From assembly GCF_008124865.1 (NCBI RefSeq), contig NZ_VNHY01000001.1, forward strand, positions 248,001 through 312,000: a stretch of DNA of 64,000 nucleotides. The letters run 5' to 3'. Below the pieces are notes generated by a model. It saw only the letters and a list, made by a program, of their open reading frames with translations. It was not told where the DNA came from and searched no databases. Made by a program: the position numbers and the translations under genes. The DNA comes from Fodinibius salinus (lineage in GTDB: Bacteria; Bacteroidota; Rhodothermia; Balneolales; Balneolaceae). Shown in pieces: positions 5,008-17,053 of this stretch (positions are counted from its first letter, which is position 1; every line of letters starts with the position of its first letter).

Positions 5008-8000
5008 GTGCAACTCAGAGTTTATACTTTAATTTTAGGTTTCATATTATGTTTGATGGGCGTTGGGGGTCTATCTGTGGGGGTGGTACAGGCCCAGGAC
5101 ACGACGGATATTGCTTTTCCTACTGCTACTGATTCGCTGCCCAGGCTTGAGCGCCCATCTACGATATCTTATCCCTACCCAATTAATCTGCCCAAGTTAT
5201 TTTATATTCGTCTTTCTGAAGAGCAAACGATCGTAGAGCGTGATTCCACCGGACAGTATATAAGTTATCGTTTACTGTTTGGGCTGCCGGTAGCCCAGCC
5301 GTATGTAATGGACTTCAAAGAGTATAAGAATCGAAGCCGAAGTAATGCTCTCCAGGACAACTGGGATCAACTTATTCGGGAACAGCAAACCTCGGAAACT
5401 GACCGAACGGGTTTGCTCGATTTTAAACTGGATTTACCGGCCGCCGAAGAATCTGCCTTTTCTACTATATTTGGCAAGCCCGAGGTAAACCTGAGCATTA
5501 ACGGTACAGCTAATATGAATGTGGGGGCAACGATACAAAAGACTGAGAATACCGAAATTCCTGAGGACCAGCGTACACAGGTAGATCCTACCTTTGAGCA
5601 AAGTTTAAAGTTAAATATACAAGGGACAATCGGTGATAAGTTGTCGATACAAACCGATTGGGATACTGAGCGTGATTTCGACTTTATGAATCGCCTGAAT
5701 ATTGTGTATGACGGTTATGACGATGAAATCCTGCAACGTCTGGAATTGGGTAACGTATCAATGCAAACAGGCAATTCACTGGTTAGGGGTGGGAGTGCAC
5801 TTTTTGGAGTAAAATCAGTAGCTCAAATAGGTTCGCTGGAGCTAACATCGGTGCTTTCGCAACAGGAGGGAGAAGGGAAGACGGAAACTATTACCGGCGG
5901 TGCACAGGAGAAAAATATTTCAATTCGTCCCGGTGATTATGAATCAGACCGTCACTTCTTTCTTGACTTTTTTACACGCCAGCAATTTGAGGAAAATGTA
6001 TCTGATCCTCAGCAAACAGGTCAGGCCCTGCAGCTTACAGAAGTGAATGTTTGGGCACTTCGGGAATCATCCCAATCGGTAGAAGGAGAGCGCCAGGCTA
6101 TTGCACTTGGTGGGCTGGGAGTTTCTCAAAATCCCGATAGTACCTACAATAGGCCCAACGAGAACAATGACAACATTAGTGAGCCTGTACTCGATCAGTT
6201 TCGGGACCCTTCGCTGGGAGCTTCGGCTTCAGACTTTGGCGTAAATCCGTCACAGTTTGTAGAAGGATATTTTGTGCCTTTGCAAGAAGGTGTTGATTAT
6301 TCCCTACGCCCCAATTTGGGATATATTTCCCTGAAAAGGAATCTTGGTTCTCGGCAGGCATTAGCCATATCGTTCAAATATCGCAATCCCCAGACTGGTC
6401 AGTCAATTAGTGTAGGTGATGTGAGCCCGGGAGGTGGTAACCGAATTTATTTAAAGCTAATTCGCCCGCAGACGGTTACGACAAGTAATCAATTGTGGGA
6501 TCTTATGATGAAAAATGTCTATTCCATGGGCGTTTCCAATATCACGCAGGATGGACTGGAATTTGATATCAAGTATACTGAGCAAAACGTGCCCAGCAGT
6601 TCGTTGCCCGGTCGTAATACCGTCTTGCTGCAGGATTTGGGACTCGATCGTGTAGACCAGCAGGGTTCGTTAAGCCCCGATAATAATCTCGATTTTAGTA
6701 CGACGGTATTAAACCCCGCCGCGGGACTCATAGTATTTCCGTATTTACAACCGTTTGGAGACCGGATTGAAGAACTGCTAGCCCAGGCTGGGGCGGGCAG
6801 TGAAGAAATTTTTTCACTTTCGTTTACAGAACTATATAACGAGAAAAAGGTAAATGCTAACCAAGAGTCAAAAAACAACTTTTACTTAATGGAGGGGACC
6901 TCCAAAGGCAGTGTCTCATCAAGCTATTCGCTAGGGTACTCACTAGTAGAGGGATCAGTCACGGTGCTGGCGAATGGACGCGAGCTACAAGAGGGTACCG
7001 ATTATGCTGTTGATTATTCTATTGGTAGCATTACGATTCTAAATGATCAGTATTTGAAGAAGGGGCAAGAGATAAAAATTGAGTACGAAAACAATCAGCT
7101 TACTCAAATTGGGCAAAAGAGTTTTACAGGGGTACGAGCTGAGTATCAGTTCAGTGATAATATTACCTTGGGCAGTACTTATTTTCGACTCAAAGAGAAG
7201 CCGCTGCAAGATAAAATCCGAATCGGCGATGAACCCATCAATAATTCTGTAATTGGTTTTGATGCTAATGCCCAATTCGATACGCCGTGGCTTACACGCT
7301 TGGTTGATAAAGTTCCGCTGCTTCAGACAAAGGCACGGTCGAGTATGTCATTTAGCGGTGAATTTGCTCGGCTAAAGCCTGGAATTTCGCAGACAGGTGC
7401 AGTAGAAGATGCAATTGAACAAAATCGCTTGTTTGAAGATGAAGAAAATGGACTTTCATTTATTGATGATTTTGAAGGATCCGACATTGGATTAAGCTTT
7501 CTAAGTCCATCACGATGGTCTTTGGCTGCTGCGCCTGCGGCCGTTCCCGGCTATGCCCCTGATGCCATGTATTTTGATGATAACCCGCCTCAAAATCCAA
7601 TGACAAGTATTGCTGATAAAGCAGCAAGGTCGGACTTACGCAGTCAATTTGCGTGGTATACCATCCCACAAAATATTGATCAGATTTTGGGAGGCGTAGA
7701 ATTTACTCCCGAATCAGAGCCGGTGCAGGTAACAGAGGTATTTCCGAATCGTGATGTTCTTACAGAAGAAAACTTTATTAACACACTGGATGTCCATTAC
7801 AACCCTACTGAGCGTGGCCCCTACAACTATAATAACAATTTGCGAACACTACTTGAGGATGAACCGGAACGTACCTGGGGCGGAATGACGACAACGCTTC
7901 CTTCTGGACAAGAAGATTTAACTCAAAATAACATCGAGTTTTTAGAATTTTGGGTGCAGTCGGTACTGCCGGGAGGAAAGGTCCCTACAGCAAAGGATCT

Positions 8001-11000
8001 GCAAGACTATGACGGTAAAATTTATATTGATGTGGGAGTTGTTTCGGAAGATGTGGTACCAAATTTTAAGACGAATACCGAGGATGGATTAGTCCGCAGA
8101 CCTGATGACCTCCAACGGGATAATATTGGCGTGGATTCACGGTCTTATTTGCCCATACCACCACCGGCACCCGAAGGGCAATTTTCTAATGAGACACAGT
8201 TACAGGCTGATGTAGGACTTGACGGAGCACCCAATACCAATGGTATTGATAATAAAAACGAGCAAAACTTATTCTCCGATTTCATTAATGTGATCAAGTC
8301 CCAGTACGGCAACGCCAGTACTATGGCCAGTGATGTACAGAATGATCCCTCGAATGATGACTATACGTATTATGGGGAAAGTGAAGTTGAGGGACGCCCT
8401 TTACACCAGCGCTTCCATCGTATGTACGGCTATCATGAAGGTAACTCTCCGTCAAACAGCGGCGAAAAGCGAGCAGTAACGAATGAACCGGATACCGAGG
8501 GATTAATTACGCAATCCATTGTAGAACAAAATAATGCTTACTTTCAATATGAGATTGACTGGAACCCTGCCAACCTAGATAACATAAATCCGGGCAGTGA
8601 CAGTACGTTTGTTGTTGATATGGTGGATAGCCCCAACCAGGAGGATCGGTGGTTTCAGGTACGCGTACCACTAAAAGAATGGGCACGGAAAGTCGGAGGA
8701 ATCGAAAATTTTCAAAATATTTCGTATATCCGTGTGTGGTTATCGGGTTATGAAAAGCCTTTCACACTTCGTTTTGCAACTTTTGAACTCGTGGGCAGTC
8801 AATGGCGACCGGCAGAAAACGTAGATAAAGAACAGGGCACAATGCAGGGTGAATTTAATATCTCATCTGTCAATATAGAGGAAAACAGCCAGCGACAGCC
8901 CATCCCATACCGCAAACCGGAAGGTGCCGTACGTGCCACTGATCGAGGGCGACAGCGCCAGACTGTACAAAATGAGCAGTCTATTGTAATGAACCTGCAA
9001 AATTTAGCTGGGGGAGAGTTGAAAATGATGAAGCGTGTTTATCCCGGTGGATTAAATATGATCAATTATTCGAATGTACGAATGTTCGTACACGGTGAGG
9101 GGTATGATAATCGGAGTGATGCCGAGCTGGTTATGCGTTTCGGTACGGATCTTACAAATAATTACTATGAATACCGCCAGCCTATTACACCTACCGACGA
9201 AAAATTCCCGTTCAGTAATAAATTGACCAGCGAATTAGATGATCCAACCCGCCTCACCGAAGCCGAGGAGGTGTGGTTATATGACGAAAACAGTATGAAT
9301 ATTCTGCTTCGGGCTTTTAACGAGCTTAAACAGCTACGCGATCAGCAGGGGGGAGATCCAAGTACAAAATTTGAGCGCAGTGATCTCCTGGAAAATGCAC
9401 CGTCCGGTACCCGTATTGCCGTAAAAGGGAATCCCTCGCTGGACAGAGTTGGGGAGATTGGAATGGGAATTCATAATCCGTTTGATCCCCAGAATCCTTC
9501 GGAAGGGGGTGTTTCATCATTAAGCGGCCAGTTTTGGTTTAATGAACTACGAGTGTCGGGCTATGATAATCAATCAGGATGGGCTGCTACGGCGAAAGGT
9601 AATATCGAATTTGCTGACTTTGCCTCTGTTAGTGCAAATGTTAACCGTGAGACGGATGGTTTTGGTTCCCTTGATTCTGGATTGGGACAACGCCGAATGT
9701 CTGATCTTTTTGCTTATGATGTGAATACTACGCTGAATCTACACAAATTTATTCCCGAACGGTATGGATGGAATATCCCTGTTACATTATCGACGCGTCA
9801 GTCCTCCTCAACGCCGCGATATTTGCCCAATCAGGGTGATGTGCGACTGTCGGAATTTAAGAGTGCTGTCCATGCGCGGGATGATATTGATGAGGAACAG
9901 AAAGACCAAATTATTGACCAGCGGATTAGGCAAAGTCAGACTGTGAGTGAGAGTTATTCTATTAATGTTTCGAATGTATCAAAGTCGGGCTCCAATTCTA
10001 CATTGGCACAATATACGTTAGATAAAACAACCCTTAACTATGTATATAATACGACCGAGCGTCGTAATCCCGAATATTCTATGCAGGATAACTGGAATTA
10101 CAGCGGGTCACTGCGATACGATGTTAATTTCCAGAATACGCTGTTGTTTCGCCCTTTAGGGTTTTTAGGTAATATTCCAATTTTACACCCACTGGCAGGA
10201 CTTCAACTTGGGTATACCCCGGCATCCATCAACGCATCGGTGGGTATAGACCGGGAGTATGACGAGCGGTTGCGTCGATTTACAGCCGGAGAGGAAGCTA
10301 CGCTACAGCAATCACATAGTTTTACCTATAATACCGAGTTTGGCTTTGGTTATAATTTAACCCCATCCATTAAAACTACCTTTCGCAGTCGTTCCGTTTT
10401 TGACCTTTCTCAAGCAGGAGTCACCGGTGATACGCCCGGCAATCCAATGGCCGACAGTACCGAGTTTAGAGTACAACCTTCATTTGATGTGCTCAGAGAT
10501 GTAGCTTTTGATACGGTTTCTGCCCGCCGCAGTAATTATCAGGAAGCCTATACCGCGAGTTGGCAGCCCCGTCTTAATACGATTGATGCCGTTAGCTGGG
10601 TCAATTATTCGGCTAACTACAGCGGTGGATACCAGTGGCGTAACAGTCCGCGGGGATCGCAGCTGGGGGCAACAGTTTCAAATAATTTTAGTTTAAATCA
10701 GACACTTGATTTTGATCTCCGCAGTTTGTTAAACCGGATGGATTGGTATAGCAACTTACAAAATGAAGAAACTGACTCACGCCCTTCATCCGCTCCACAG
10801 GATACAACGTCGGGCTATTCCGAAGAGCAGCTGGGAGAAGATTTGGCCAATATAGGCAAGAAAAGTTTAGCTGCTATATTGAGTCTGCAATCTCTGGATG
10901 TGTCTTTCAATATTTCCAAAAGTGCATTACAGAACGGTTATTCCGGTGGTTCTACTTTATTTGATATGTTTAATTCAAGCCCCGGTGATTTTTCTCCCCC

Positions 11001-12228
11001 TTTTTCTTACCGTACTGGTGTTACGGATAATATCGGGCGAAGTCGCCTTATTGATAATCCCAACGATAATACCAGCTTGCAGTTGCCATCTAATCGTAAT
11101 CTTACCGACGATATTACTGTGGGTGCACGCTTTGCACCTTTTGATAATTTTACAATTGATCTAACCTGGAATACCGAATGGAAACGAAATCGTACCAAAT
11201 CAATTACCATTGATCCCAATCAAAGTATCAGCTCGGTGAGTAACCAGAATGGGATGATAGGTTCCAGCGTATGGGCTTTTGGCGGGGGATATTCCAGTCT
11301 TTTCCGCGAGCAGCTCAGTACGGCCTTTGAGGATATTAACAACGGAAGTACGGTGATTAACGATAGCCAGGGAAATAATGATGGAGAATCTGTACTGGGA
11401 CGCAAGACATTGCAGAATGATTTCCGAAGAGCTTATTTAGGAGCTGGAAAAGGAGCTATTGGCAATCGTAGTTTTACGCCTTTTCCTATGCCCAACTGGC
11501 GCATTACATGGACGGGCATAGAATCTTTCTTCCCCTTGATAGGTGATGCTATGTCCCGTGCATCCATCACCCATAATTACAAAGGTCAGTACCGCTTGGG
11601 ATGGGTTTTTAATTCGGATACCAGCTTGCTGCCTGATTTCTCGGTGGGCGCTTATTCTGTTTCAAATCCTCGGCCCGAATTTGATCCTAACAGCATCAGC
11701 GTAGAAAAGAAATTTAGTCCGCTACTGGGATTGAATATTACATGGAATTCGGGATTTCGGACCAATTTTCAGTACGAATACAGCCAAATTACAAGTCTGG
11801 CACTGTCGAACTCAACTGTAATTGAGCGATTGTCGAAAGGTATAAAGCTCTCTTTTGCTTATACACTTCGTGATTTTAAGATTCCACTTTTTCCCCGAGT
11901 GCGCAATGCTATTGATATCACTATTAACGGCAGTTTGCTTGAAGATAAGGAGACAAAATACGAACTTGATTCCGATCTCGGAAAAGCGTTGAGTGCTGGT
12001 CCCAGCGTTATCAAAAAAGATGTATCGAATGCTGATTTCTCGGGTACGACTACTGGAGGACAAAAACGTATTAACGGATCTGCAATTATTGGATATCAGT
12101 TTTCGCAAACGGTCAAAGCCAATTTTGAGTATAACTACAACCGCTTAATACCCAAAACATCGGGTGTTTTTGGTCGTACCGATCACGACATTCGGTTTAA
12201 TATTGTAGTCTCTATTCGATCTAATTAG
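5008..12228 (+). CDS. sprA: SprA, giant outer-membrane translocon of the type IX secretion system
   Basis: SprA (Sov) forms the very large outer-membrane beta barrel through which type IX secretion substrates leave the cell, and is needed for gliding where that occurs. The product is 2406 residues, the normal size class for this family. A signal peptide (residues 1-30, ending VVQAQD) is followed by SprA N-terminal blocks such as GDKLSIQTDWDTERDFDFMNRLN and by long alternating beta-strand sequence to the C-terminus (RFNIVVSIRSN). The start is GTG: the in-frame stop at 4969 and the absence of an in-frame ATG before the signal peptide leave little choice. Its end overlaps the convergent lnt gene by 8 bases. 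No other type IX core gene (porK, L, M, N, V) is in the window. Confidence 0.95.
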   Translation: MQLRVYTLILGFILCLMGVGGLSVGVVQAQDTTDIAFPTATDSLPRLERPSTISYPYPINLPKLFYIRLSEEQTIVERDSTGQYISYRLLFGLPVAQPYVMDFKEYKNRSRSNALQDNWDQLIREQQTSETDRTGLLDFKLDLPAAEESAFSTIFGKPEVNLSINGTANMNVGATIQKTENTEIPEDQRTQVDPTFEQSLKLNIQGTIGDKLSIQTDWDTERDFDFMNRLNIVYDGYDDEILQRLELGNVSMQTGNSLVRGGSALFGVKSVAQIGSLELTSVLSQQEGEGKTETITGGAQEKNISIRPGDYESDRHFFLDFFTRQQFEENVSDPQQTGQALQLTEVNVWALRESSQSVEGERQAIALGGLGVSQNPDSTYNRPNENNDNISEPVLDQFRDPSLGASASDFGVNPSQFVEGYFVPLQEGVDYSLRPNLGYISLKRNLGSRQALAISFKYRNPQTGQSISVGDVSPGGGNRIYLKLIRPQTVTTSNQLWDLMMKNVYSMGVSNITQDGLEFDIKYTEQNVPSSSLPGRNTVLLQDLGLDRVDQQGSLSPDNNLDFSTTVLNPAAGLIVFPYLQPFGDRIEELLAQAGAGSEEIFSLSFTELYNEKKVNANQESKNNFYLMEGTSKGSVSSSYSLGYSLVEGSVTVLANGRELQEGTDYAVDYSIGSITILNDQYLKKGQEIKIEYENNQLTQIGQKSFTGVRAEYQFSDNITLGSTYFRLKEKPLQDKIRIGDEPINNSVIGFDANAQFDTPWLTRLVDKVPLLQTKARSSMSFSGEFARLKPGISQTGAVEDAIEQNRLFEDEENGLSFIDDFEGSDIGLSFLSPSRWSLAAAPAAVPGYAPDAMYFDDNPPQNPMTSIADKAARSDLRSQFAWYTIPQNIDQILGGVEFTPESEPVQVTEVFPNRDVLTEENFINTLDVHYNPTERGPYNYNNNLRTLLEDEPERTWGGMTTTLPSGQEDLTQNNIEFLEFWVQSVLPGGKVPTAKDLQDYDGKIYIDVGVVSEDVVPNFKTNTEDGLVRRPDDLQRDNIGVDSRSYLPIPPPAPEGQFSNETQLQADVGLDGAPNTNGIDNKNEQNLFSDFINVIKSQYGNASTMASDVQNDPSNDDYTYYGESEVEGRPLHQRFHRMYGYHEGNSPSNSGEKRAVTNEPDTEGLITQSIVEQNNAYFQYEIDWNPANLDNINPGSDSTFVVDMVDSPNQEDRWFQVRVPLKEWARKVGGIENFQNISYIRVWLSGYEKPFTLRFATFELVGSQWRPAENVDKEQGTMQGEFNISSVNIEENSQRQPIPYRKPEGAVRATDRGRQRQTVQNEQSIVMNLQNLAGGELKMMKRVYPGGLNMINYSNVRMFVHGEGYDNRSDAELVMRFGTDLTNNYYEYRQPITPTDEKFPFSNKLTSELDDPTRLTEAEEVWLYDENSMNILLRAFNELKQLRDQQGGDPSTKFERSDLLENAPSGTRIAVKGNPSLDRVGEIGMGIHNPFDPQNPSEGGVSSLSGQFWFNELRVSGYDNQSGWAATAKGNIEFADFASVSANVNRETDGFGSLDSGLGQRRMSDLFAYDVNTTLNLHKFIPERYGWNIPVTLSTRQSSSTPRYLPNQGDVRLSEFKSAVHARDDIDEEQKDQIIDQRIRQSQTVSESYSINVSNVSKSGSNSTLAQYTLDKTTLNYVYNTTERRNPEYSMQDNWNYSGSLRYDVNFQNTLLFRPLGFLGNIPILHPLAGLQLGYTPASINASVGIDREYDERLRRFTAGEEATLQQSHSFTYNTEFGFGYNLTPSIKTTFRSRSVFDLSQAGVTGDTPGNPMADSTEFRVQPSFDVLRDVAFDTVSARRSNYQEAYTASWQPRLNTIDAVSWVNYSANYSGGYQWRNSPRGSQLGATVSNNFSLNQTLDFDLRSLLNRMDWYSNLQNEETDSRPSSAPQDTTSGYSEEQLGEDLANIGKKSLAAILSLQSLDVSFNISKSALQNGYSGGSTLFDMFNSSPGDFSPPFSYRTGVTDNIGRSRLIDNPNDNTSLQLPSNRNLTDDITVGARFAPFDNFTIDLTWNTEWKRNRTKSITIDPNQSISSVSNQNGMIGSSVWAFGGGYSSLFREQLSTAFEDINNGSTVINDSQGNNDGESVLGRKTLQNDFRRAYLGAGKGAIGNRSFTPFPMPNWRITWTGIESFFPLIGDAMSRASITHNYKGQYRLGWVFNSDTSLLPDFSVGAYSVSNPRPEFDPNSISVEKKFSPLLGLNITWNSGFRTNFQYEYSQITSLALSNSTVIERLSKGIKLSFAYTLRDFKIPLFPRVRNAIDITINGSLLEDKETKYELDSDLGKALSAGPSVIKKDVSNADFSGTTTGGQKRINGSAIIGYQFSQTVKANFEYNYNRLIPKTSGVFGRTDHDIRFNIVVSIRSN

Positions 12229-14712: not shown

Positions 14713-15105
14713 ATGGCTGATTTTACACCATCCGGTATTAATCACATGACCATCCGCGTGAATGATATTGAACGTGCTGAAGAGTTTTATGGCGATGTCT
14801 TGGGGTTTGACCTGATTCGAAAAATGGGAAAAAGTATGTCGGTGTATCAAATTGGAGATGAAGATACGCTAGTACTTGTGGAGGCGGAAACCAGTTATGA
14901 TACCTCATCAAGTGATTATCGGGTAGATCATTTTGGGTTTTATCTGGATTCAGAAGAAGAAGTCGATGAAATGGCCGAATATTTGCGCGATCAGGAGGTA
15001 ACAATTTTAAGCGGTCCTGCCAATCGAAAGCGCGGACGGTTTGTGTTTATCTCGGATCCTGATGGCAATATGATTGAACTTTTTTATGAAGAGGATGAAG
15101 AATAG
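14713..15105 (+). CDS. VOC (glyoxalase/bleomycin-resistance fold) protein
   Basis: A 130-residue single vicinal-oxygen-chelate protein. The paired beta-alpha-beta-beta-beta modules are visible: INHMTIRVNDIERAEEFYGDVLGF at the N-terminus and VDHFGFYLDSEEEVDEM in the middle, ending GNMIELFYEE. The likely metal ligands are the His in NHMTI, the His in VDHFG and the Glu in IELFY. Members include glyoxalase I, dioxygenases and thiol-transferase resistance proteins, so the substrate cannot be read from sequence. It stands alone between rsmI (divergent) and grpE. The palindrome at 14611-14624 may control it. Confidence 0.85.
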   Translation: MADFTPSGINHMTIRVNDIERAEEFYGDVLGFDLIRKMGKSMSVYQIGDEDTLVLVEAETSYDTSSSDYRVDHFGFYLDSEEEVDEMAEYLRDQEVTILSGPANRKRGRFVFISDPDGNMIELFYEEDEE

Positions 15106-15153
15106 CAGATGGTCATATTTTTATAGTCGGACTGACACTCTGAAGTTTAGTTA

Positions 15154-15175
15154 GCCGACAGGTTTATTTGTCGGC
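15154..15175. promoter_or_regulatory. Inverted repeat upstream of grpE: possible activator site or VOC terminator
   Basis: GCCGACA (15154-15160) and TGTCGGC (15169-15175) form a 7-base stem with an 8-base loop. No run of T follows, which argues against an intrinsic terminator of the VOC gene. It is centred about 70 bases before the predicted sigma-54 start, where enhancer-binding activators usually bind. Function is inferred. Confidence 0.35.
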
Positions 15176-15208
15176 AACTTTGTCACGAGATACCCCCTCA
15201 TTTTTTGA

Positions 15209-15224
15209 TGGCATGCTATTTGCA
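15209..15224 (+). promoter_or_regulatory. Putative sigma-54 (RpoN) promoter of grpE-dnaJ
   Basis: TGGCATG-CTAT-TTGCA has GG and GC separated by exactly 10 bases, the invariant -24/-12 spacing, and matches the consensus TGGCAYG-N4-TTGCW at every specified position. The predicted start is near 15235, leaving a leader of about 37 bases to the grpE ATG at 15272. No good Bacteroidota -33/-7 pair is seen in the same gap. A match by chance remains possible, and rpoN must exist in the genome. Confidence 0.5.
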
Positions 15225-15271
15225 TTTCAAGATAAACAAGAATGACAGTATTTAACCTTTAGATTGATAAC

Positions 15272-15874
15272 ATGAGCGAATCGAAGAAAGAAGTTTCTGA
15301 ACAAGAAGCGGCTGAAATTGAAGAGCAGGAACAAGAAGTATCTGAGGAACAGTCGGAAGAAGAATTACCGTATCAGAATTTTAATGAAGATGAGCTGCGG
15401 GAAATGCTTGTTGCCCGTGAGGAAGAGCTTTCTGAACTGGAACAAGAAGTGAACGAGTTAAAAGACGATCGATTGCGCAAAGTAGCAGAGCTTGAAAACT
15501 ATAGAAAGCGTGTAAAGCGAGAGCGTTCCCAGGTGTATGAGACAGCTAAAGCCAGAGCGCTCGAAGATTTTTTGGAAATCAATGATGACATCCAGCGAAC
15601 ATTAGGTGCGGCTGAAGAGCTTGATGTGAATGAGACCTTTTTTGATGGGGTACAGATGGTAGCCAAAAAACTTCAGGAAATTTTGCGAAAGAATGATGTG
15701 CAGCGCATTGATCAAGAGGGGGTTCCTTTTGATGTAGATTTGCATGATGCTATGATGCGCCGCAAGCCCGAAGATGACAGCATTGAAAGTGATATAGTTT
15801 TAAATGTCGTGGAAAGCGGTTATCGTATGGGAGATCGTACTATTCGTCATGCCAAAGTAATTGTAAGTGAATAA
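15272..15874 (+). CDS. grpE: Nucleotide exchange factor GrpE
   Basis: Cochaperone that releases ADP from DnaK. The 200 residues begin with a very acidic, low-complexity stretch (residues 1-50), then a long coiled coil (about 50-95) with the typical RLRKVAELENYRKRVKRER segment, then the four-helix region and the C-terminal beta wing (YRMGDRTIRHAKVIVSE). Length is normal. It lies 24 bases before dnaJ and shares its transcript; dnaK is not in the window. A putative sigma-54 promoter precedes it. No CIRCE element is seen in the leader, so HrcA control is not supported here. Confidence 0.96.
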   Translation: MSESKKEVSEQEAAEIEEQEQEVSEEQSEEELPYQNFNEDELREMLVAREEELSELEQEVNELKDDRLRKVAELENYRKRVKRERSQVYETAKARALEDFLEINDDIQRTLGAAEELDVNETFFDGVQMVAKKLQEILRKNDVQRIDQEGVPFDVDLHDAMMRRKPEDDSIESDIVLNVVESGYRMGDRTIRHAKVIVSE

Positions 15875-15898: not shown

Positions 15899-17053
15899 AT
15901 GTCTAAACGCGATTATTACGAAGTATTAGGTGTTAGCAAAAATGCATCTGAATCGGAAATCAAAAAAGCCTATCGTAAGAAGGCCATGAAGTTTCACCCG
16001 GATCGCAATGAGGAAGATCCGGAGGCCGAGAAGAAATTTAAGGAGGCTTCAGAGGCATACGAAGTTCTTAGTGATGAGCAAAAGCGTCAGCGTTATGATC
16101 AGTTTGGTCACCGAGGAGTTAATAACGGTGCCAATGGTTTTGGCGGTCGCGGCGGTGCAGGCTTTGATAATTTTGAGGATATCTTTAGTCAATTTAGCGA
16201 TATATTTGGCAGTGAATTTGGCGGGGGTGGCCGTTCTCGGCGGCGTCGATCGTCAGGGCGGAAAGGTTCCGATATGAAACTGCGTATTGACCTGGAGCTT
16301 GAGGAAATTGCTTTTGGCACTGAGAAGAAGCTGAAGGTAAAGAAGTATATTACTTGTGATGAATGCGATGGCACCGGGGCCGAGACGAAAAACGATTTTG
16401 AGACCTGCAGTACCTGTAGCGGTACCGGTGAAGTTCGCCAAGTGCGTAAAACGATGTTGGGACAGATGGTGAATGTACAGCCTTGTCCCGAATGTAATGG
16501 TGAAGGGCGCATTATCCGTAATAAGTGTTCAAAGTGTAGCGGCGAAGGGCGTTACAAAGGGAAAGAAACCGTGAAGGTGAACGTGCCTTCCGGTGTATCA
16601 GAAGGAAATTATATTACGCTTCGCGGTAAGGGGAACGCCGGCAAACGCGGCGGTGAGGCTGGTGCTCTCGTTGTCCTGATTGAAGAGAAAGAGCATGAGC
16701 ACTTTGAGCGTGATGGCAATGATATTTATTACGATCTGGTACTCAGCGTGCCTGATGCTATTCTGGGAACCGAAGTAAAAGTGCCTACGCTTAAAGGTAA
16801 GGCAAAAATAAAGGTTGAAGAAGGAGTGCAGCCAGGTAAATTGTTGCGAATGAGTGACAAGGGTATTCATGGCTTAAAACGGTCGGGTATCGGCGACCAG
16901 TATGTGCGGGTAAACGTATATATTCCTGATGATCTGGATGAGGAAGAGCGCAAGCACATCGAATCGCTTCGGGGCAGTGAACGGTTTAATGCCTCCAATA
17001 AAGAAGATGATGGCAAGGGCTTCTTCTCTAAAATTAGGGATGTATTTGCTTAA
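15899..17053 (+). CDS. dnaJ: Chaperone DnaJ
   Basis: Hsp40 cochaperone that stimulates DnaK ATPase and delivers unfolded clients. Full type I architecture over 384 residues: J domain (1-70) with the HPD motif in KFHPDRN, a Gly/Phe-rich linker with an Arg-rich tail (about 75-130), four zinc-binding CxxCxGxG-type repeats ([32 protein letters not shown]), then the substrate-binding C-terminal domains. It follows grpE by 24 bases. An AT-rich hairpin just downstream probably ends the operon. Confidence 0.97.

Follow-up and report, generated by a model that had tools for sequence, protein, structure and literature searches.

Which sigma factor transcribes the grpE-dnaJ chaperone operon of Fodinibius salinus, and what stands there in place of the repressor HrcA? 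The operon is located in a window of 64,000 nucleotides (the whole stretch of DNA that was analysed), which lies on contig 1 of a 2.86 Mb genome in nine contigs. F. salinus is a member of the Balneolaceae, which NCBI places in the phylum Balneolota. It consists of grpE (15272..15874, + strand; PF01025, E 9.6e-38) and dnaJ (15899..17053, + strand; PF00226, PF00684 and PF01556), and is preceded by a glyoxalase-family gene (14713..15105, + strand; PF00903), which ends upstream of the promoter region. A sequence-only reading of the window had proposed that the operon is controlled by sigma-54. We consider it roughly 90% probable that positions 15209-15224 are a working sigma-54 promoter of grpE-dnaJ, which belongs to a set of such promoters in front of chaperone operons and stands where related families have HrcA and its operator CIRCE, the likeliest activator being an enhancer-binding protein (EBP) designated EBP4.

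The putative promoter TGGCATGCTATTTGCA (15209..15224, + strand), consisting of a -24 TGGCA and a -12 TTGC box, was assigned by pattern match and conservation, and the ATG of grpE (15272) follows 63 nt downstream. The GG and GC dinucleotides are exactly 10 bases apart, and the sequence agrees with GG-N10-GC within TGGCAY..TTGCW, so that the earlier description of a match to all positions of the RpoN consensus is correct. From the usual geometry of sigma-54 promoters, transcription is predicted to begin at position 15235 (+ strand), about 12 nt downstream of the -12 box. When both strands of the window were searched, TGGCAYGNNNNTTGCW had a single exact match, at 15209-15224, where 0.03 matches are expected by chance according to our own arithmetic. 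With up to two mismatches, 13 matches were found in the window compared to a shuffle mean of 18; since this is no excess, the single match is weak evidence, and the warning that one 16-base match may arise by chance was well placed. Whether the site is real is therefore decided by its conservation across relatives rather than by the single match. As the sequence-only reading had stated, neither of the common heat-shock systems is visible at grpE: region 15106-15271 contains no CIRCE-like sequence (the best match is wrong at 8 of 18 positions) and no promoter resembling that of sigma-32, a proteobacterial factor (consensus CTTGAA..CCCCAT), and no HrcA match was found in the genome. Elsewhere in the window, a 2406-aa open frame (5008-12228) resembles, by eye, the giant outer-membrane protein SprA of type IX secretion.

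The upstream region of grpE was compared among 58 relatives of the same order, 35 of which belong to the Balneolaceae and 23 to other families. grpE was found in 55 of them, including 33 Balneolaceae, and G013, G019 and G046, in which grpE was not found, were left out. The counts thus cover 33 of the 35 family genomes for grpE and likewise for groES, where G018 and G025 were unusable. TGGYAYN5TTGC is present within 330 nt upstream of grpE in 32 of the 33 family genomes, and was found in none of the 33 on the other strand or in the reversed text. The one exception (L025) has TTGT in place of TTGC. The spacing between TGGCA and TTGC is 6 in 32 of the 33 upstream regions, while each of the other spacings between 2 and 11 was seen in none or one of them, and the conserved columns of the alignment are the -24 and -12 boxes.

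A search of the genome of F. salinus revealed a complete rpoN gene, whose product has the activator-interacting, core-binding and DNA-binding domains, and four EBPs with scores above 230 bits each for the sigma-54 interaction domain; a ClpB-like protein is one of the weaker matches to this domain. Two checks proposed with the sequence-only reading, one for rpoN and activators in the genome and one for the -24/-12 element in front of grpE in related species, therefore both gave a positive result. Together with the absence of detectable HrcA and CIRCE, they support a probable sigma-54 promoter of grpE-dnaJ.

The pattern TGGYAYNNNNNTTGCW has 23 matches in the genome and five in the reversed control. 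Fifteen of the 23 are located inside predicted genes, one is intergenic without a start nearby, and seven lie within about 150 nt of a start on the same strand. Five of these seven precede chaperone genes, namely grpE (63 nt), groES (about 145 nt, counted from the Cpn10 start), hsp20-dnaK (C5:21314, 51 nt), a second hsp20 gene (77 nt) and a gene for a DnaJ-like protein with J and C-terminal domains (67 nt). The site at C5:21314 is not intragenic, as the open frame that overlaps it is antisense to hsp20. The other two sites are found in front of a gene for a zinc dehydrogenase (102 nt, same strand) and a cytochrome c gene (TGGCACGATAGTTGCA, G000:C1:84901-84916, L301; 60 nt), which is followed by a gene encoding a protein with a nitrous-oxide-reductase propeller repeat. 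In front of clpB, at a distance of 69 nt, there is a near match, CGGTACGGTATTAGC. Several chaperone operons of a single genome carry sigma-54 sites, which would place them among the sigma-54 chaperone regulons of the Bacteroidota. The sites are also kept within the family: groES has one in 33 of 33 Balneolaceae genomes (looser pattern TGGTAYN5TTGY, with TTGT in one of them), and hsp20-dnaK in 21 of 21, the search for dnaK having covered 34 of the 58 relatives, including 21 Balneolaceae. In a separate region of the F. salinus genome (G000:C4:192718-201089; L296:2219-10590), hsp20, a gene for a trypsin-PDZ (DegP-like) protease, the DnaJ-like gene and clpB lie together; sigma-54 sites precede hsp20 and the DnaJ-like gene, and the near match precedes clpB.

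Sigma-54 promoters depend on an activator, for which a 7-base dyad upstream of the predicted start had been suggested as binding site. The dyad GCCGACA-N8-TGTCGGC does exist (15154..15175), but it is present in only one of 33 genomes, that of F. salinus itself; it was rejected as activator site and is probably not functional. A likelier candidate is the conserved TGTCA at 15181-15185, which is part of the element AACTTTGTCA (15176..15185, + strand) located 23 nt before the -24 box and conserved in grpE promoters. YGTCA or TGACA is separated from the -24 box by 20-27 nt in 30 of 32 grpE promoters and in 17 of 21 hsp20-dnaK promoters (shuffle mean 0.7 and maximum 5 in both cases), where the gap window was picked after the alignment had been seen and the sequences are related rather than independent. 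The same proximal element is found in F. salinus at the second hsp20 gene (gap 23) and the DnaJ-like gene (gap 21), and it is absent from the sites of the cytochrome c and zinc dehydrogenase genes. Since the cytochrome c site lacks TGTCA at 20-27 nt, it is perhaps served by another activator. Among groES promoters, the element occurs at this distance in one of 33, and YGTCA/TGACR pentamers are moderately enriched within 100 nt (26 compared to a shuffle mean of 8.1 and a maximum of 17). A possible distal activator element, CTGACACTCTGAA (15132..15144, + strand), was recognized by TGACR matches and contains TGACA at 15133-15137; 12 of 32 grpE promoters, which by eye correspond to the genus of F. 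salinus, have TGACR separated from the -24 box by 71-72 nt.

The combination of proximal element and promoter is closely linked to grpE. The joined pattern ASTTTGWCA-N16-34-TGGCA-N6-TTGC has 27 matches in 26 of the 58 relatives, all of them Balneolaceae, and none in the reversed control; 25 of the 27 lie at known grpE places, and the two others were found in G014:C2 and G030:C12. A search for AACTTTGTCA-N22/23-TGGCA-N6-TTGCW in 257 Gb of species genomes identified 17 stretches, where about two are expected by chance (own arithmetic). Fifteen of them come from genomes assigned to Balneolaceae, Balneola, Fodinibius/Aliifodinibius or Rhodothermia, and in all 15 the gene that follows immediately on the same strand is grpE. 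No grpE was seen in the remaining two, from Oscillospiraceae and Aurantimicrobium, the Oscillospiraceae stretch covering only 104 nt downstream.

Based on these data, the following mechanism is proposed. Sigma-54 promoters would precede the main chaperone operons, i.e. grpE-dnaJ, groES, hsp20-dnaK, the second hsp20, the DnaJ-like gene and perhaps clpB. The sigma-54 polymerase would wait at these promoters as an inactive closed complex, which would be opened by an ATP-driven EBP bound chiefly at TGTCA/TGACA just upstream. Positive control would thereby take the place of the repressor HrcA and its CIRCE operator, which are found in related families. We infer that the promoter is in use and that heat or protein misfolding is the signal.

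The distribution of HrcA within the order fits such an exchange. HrcA was found in none of the 35 Balneolaceae genomes and in 15 of the 23 other genomes of the order; none of these 15 HrcA-bearing genomes has a sigma-54 site before grpE. CIRCE precedes groES in 11 of 11 HrcA-bearing genomes examined (11 read of 14 with a groES match), and in 0 of 33 Balneolaceae genomes; a single sigma-54-like match, of the TTGT form and 198 nt away, was found among those 11 groES upstream regions. Among the genomes examined, sigma-54 chaperone sites and HrcA/CIRCE are mutually exclusive at grpE and groES in this order. The gene neighbourhood points in the same direction: in 11 of the 13 HrcA-bearing genomes tested (13 of the 15), hrcA is preceded by the end of a glyoxalase-type gene, and such a gene end is found ahead of grpE in 22 of 33 Balneolaceae genomes. 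As judged from gene order, the predicted sigma-54 promoter occupies the place that hrcA has in HrcA-bearing relatives, between the glyoxalase gene and grpE.

A second HrcA-less group, g24 of family f4, shows the glyoxalase-type gene end upstream of grpE in six of six genomes and carries TGGTATGAWNTTTGC before grpE in five of six, with TTGT in the sixth. The strict sigma-54 pattern fails before groES in all four g24 genomes read, in which HrcA was not detected. These groES upstream regions (L181, L182, L183 and L184) all contain TTTGGCACGGTTTTTTCT, in which the -24 half is kept and the GC of the -12 box is lost. G055 (84% complete), in which no HrcA was found, has no sigma-54 site at grpE. In family f5, a sigma-54 site is present in front of hsp20-dnaK in two genomes that still bear HrcA (L234, L241), which suggests that dnaK came first in the switch to sigma-54; the number and order of HrcA losses are inferred. 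A strict sigma-54 site was also found in one of three HrcA-bearing dnaK regions of family f3 (L236). In more distant families, four groES upstream regions (L279, L280, L281 and L285) contain TGGCA followed, ten bases after GG, by GA rather than GC, near TGTCA-like elements; the GA is perhaps a form of the -12 box peculiar to these lineages.

EBP4 (G000:C1:614745-616022) is probably the activator of the chaperone promoters, although our confidence in this assignment is only somewhat better than even. The protein starts with the AAA+ domain, ends in a Fis-type helix-turn-helix (HTH) and lacks a receiver domain, whereas the three other EBPs of F. salinus have one (two by domain search, the third by eye). 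Its sigma-54 interaction domain (PF00158) scores 235.8 bits and has the contact loop GSFTGA; the loop G[AS][FY]TGA is present in 46 and the HTH motif ERTLYRK in 47 of 47 EBP4 rows, some genomes being counted twice in both figures. EBP4 does not reach the curated cut-off of the PspF equivalog TIGR02974, scoring 296.6 bits where 443.55 bits are required. A clear ortholog (above 450 bits) is found in 53 of the 58 relatives, and 117 of 118 genomes across the phylum have exactly one match (E 1e-80). In F. salinus, EBP4 lies beside an lptE-like gene, and groES is not its neighbour. The gene order miaB, EBP4, lptE, a TPR gene, secG, groES and groEL was found in four of 20 loci read, which belong to three families; groES and groEL were named by motif and the other genes by eye.

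The sigma-54 reading has to be weighed against three alternatives, one of which concerns the sigma factor itself. grpE could be driven by the housekeeping sigma factor of the group, which recognizes -33 TTG and -7 TAnnTTTG, and the GG-N10-GC likeness would then be incidental. TAnnTTTG is indeed found within 200 nt of grpE in 18 of 33 relatives, with TTG at the -33 spacing in four, so those relatives may have an additional housekeeping promoter. We nevertheless regard this explanation as highly improbable, since the F. salinus region 15106-15271 has no TAnnTTTG and the conservation of the family promoters falls on the -24/-12 boxes at one exact spacing. A far less remote but still unlikely alternative is that the sigma-54 promoter serves another signal, such as envelope stress or starvation, and that heat shock is regulated otherwise. 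For the corresponding set of Flavobacterium psychrophilum, the parts of that study considered here describe responses to blood agar, osmotic pressure, plasma and freshwater (PMC9723704), and two F. salinus sites precede non-chaperone genes; against this stand the five of seven sites near starts that precede chaperones, and the replacement of HrcA/CIRCE at the same operons.

It is also conceivable, though less probable than control by EBP4, that sigma-54 is correct and the activator is a different one, e.g., one of the three EBPs of the response-regulator type. The presence of these proteins in F. salinus and the near absence of the proximal element from groES promoters would be in line with this. 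Furthermore, EBP4 does not track the loss of HrcA, because it is also present in HrcA-bearing genomes, and five of the 58 relatives (G018, G044, G047, G050 and G051) have no clear EBP4; G018, which is 71% complete, has kept the grpE site (L028). However, EBP4 is the only EBP matched (E 1e-40) in G026 (96% complete) and G031 (90% complete), and both keep sigma-54 sites at grpE and groES (L036, L111, L196 and L197), and the proximity of EBP4 to groES-groEL in the four loci likewise argues for EBP4. At the grpE promoter of G026 (L036), no proximal element was found.

On a larger scale, EBP4 might be the chaperone (heat-shock) activator of the whole Bacteroidota sensu lato including the Balneolota, acting via sigma-54 and TGTCA/TGACA, a proposal that we put forward tentatively and at somewhat less than even odds. 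According to this proposal, EBP4 would have run hsp20-dnaK while HrcA ran groESL, and would have assumed control of grpE-dnaJ and groESL in lineages that lost hrcA, which probably happened repeatedly in the order. Because EBP4 lacks a receiver domain, its activity would be restrained by a partner protein, and the chaperones themselves might play this part. If true, this would name the activator that was left open by the work on F. psychrophilum. In the open-licence literature searched, no paper was found that names EBP4 as a chaperone activator, and a search for Balneolaceae together with sigma54 found nothing; the terms groE, grpE and Bacteroid- do not occur in PMC3162934.

Control of grpE-dnaJ by RpoN had been called unusual for a Bacteroidota-like bacterium, which overstates the case, because such control has been mapped in F. 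psychrophilum and predicted for the Bacteroidota. In F. psychrophilum, mapped starts with sigma-54 (SM4) motifs were described for groESL, dnaK, grpE-dnaJ, htpG, lon, skp and clpB, and three PF00158 proteins were considered as possible distinct activators (PMC9723704). Table 2 of that article lists a sigma-54 regulator and LptE at locus tags 0733-0732 and groESL at 0729-0728, which fits the order EBP4-lptE-groES-groEL of the four loci (PMC9723704). In contrast to the hsp20-dnaK arrangement found here, dnaK stands alone there, and the sections of the article considered here leave the activators open and contain neither an upstream element nor a comparison with HrcA (PMC9723704). For the Bacteroidota, GroEL, GroES, GrpE, DnaJ, DnaK and IbpA were predicted to be under sigma-54, the same chaperones as here; 'Balneol' occurs 0 times in the main text, and the HrcA exchange and an activator are absent from the passages considered (PMC12316311). 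Chlamydia trachomatis has tandem sigma-66 and sigma-54 promoters in front of hrcA-grpE-dnaK, and thus a sigma-54 promoter before grpE as in F. salinus; however, HrcA is kept and a sigma-66 promoter is present there, according to the part of that article used (PMC8762339).

The kind of regulon is therefore known but little studied; what is new is its occurrence in the Balneolaceae, together with the HrcA/CIRCE exchange, the upstream element and the candidate activator. Chaperone switching in this group has received little study and is tied here to sigma-54, a short upstream element and EBP4 as candidate. The HrcA/CIRCE families of the order use repressor and operator at the same operons, grpE-dnaJ and groESL, whereas both are absent in the Balneolaceae; since both arrangements, HrcA/CIRCE and sigma-54, occur at these operons within one order, the order lends itself to a direct study of how a repressor is exchanged for an activator. 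As a minor point, the statement on sigma-54 and GrpE/GroES of B. thetaiotaomicron in PMC12316311 cites, as reference 80, a paper on Blattabacterium, which in the passage considered is maybe misplaced.
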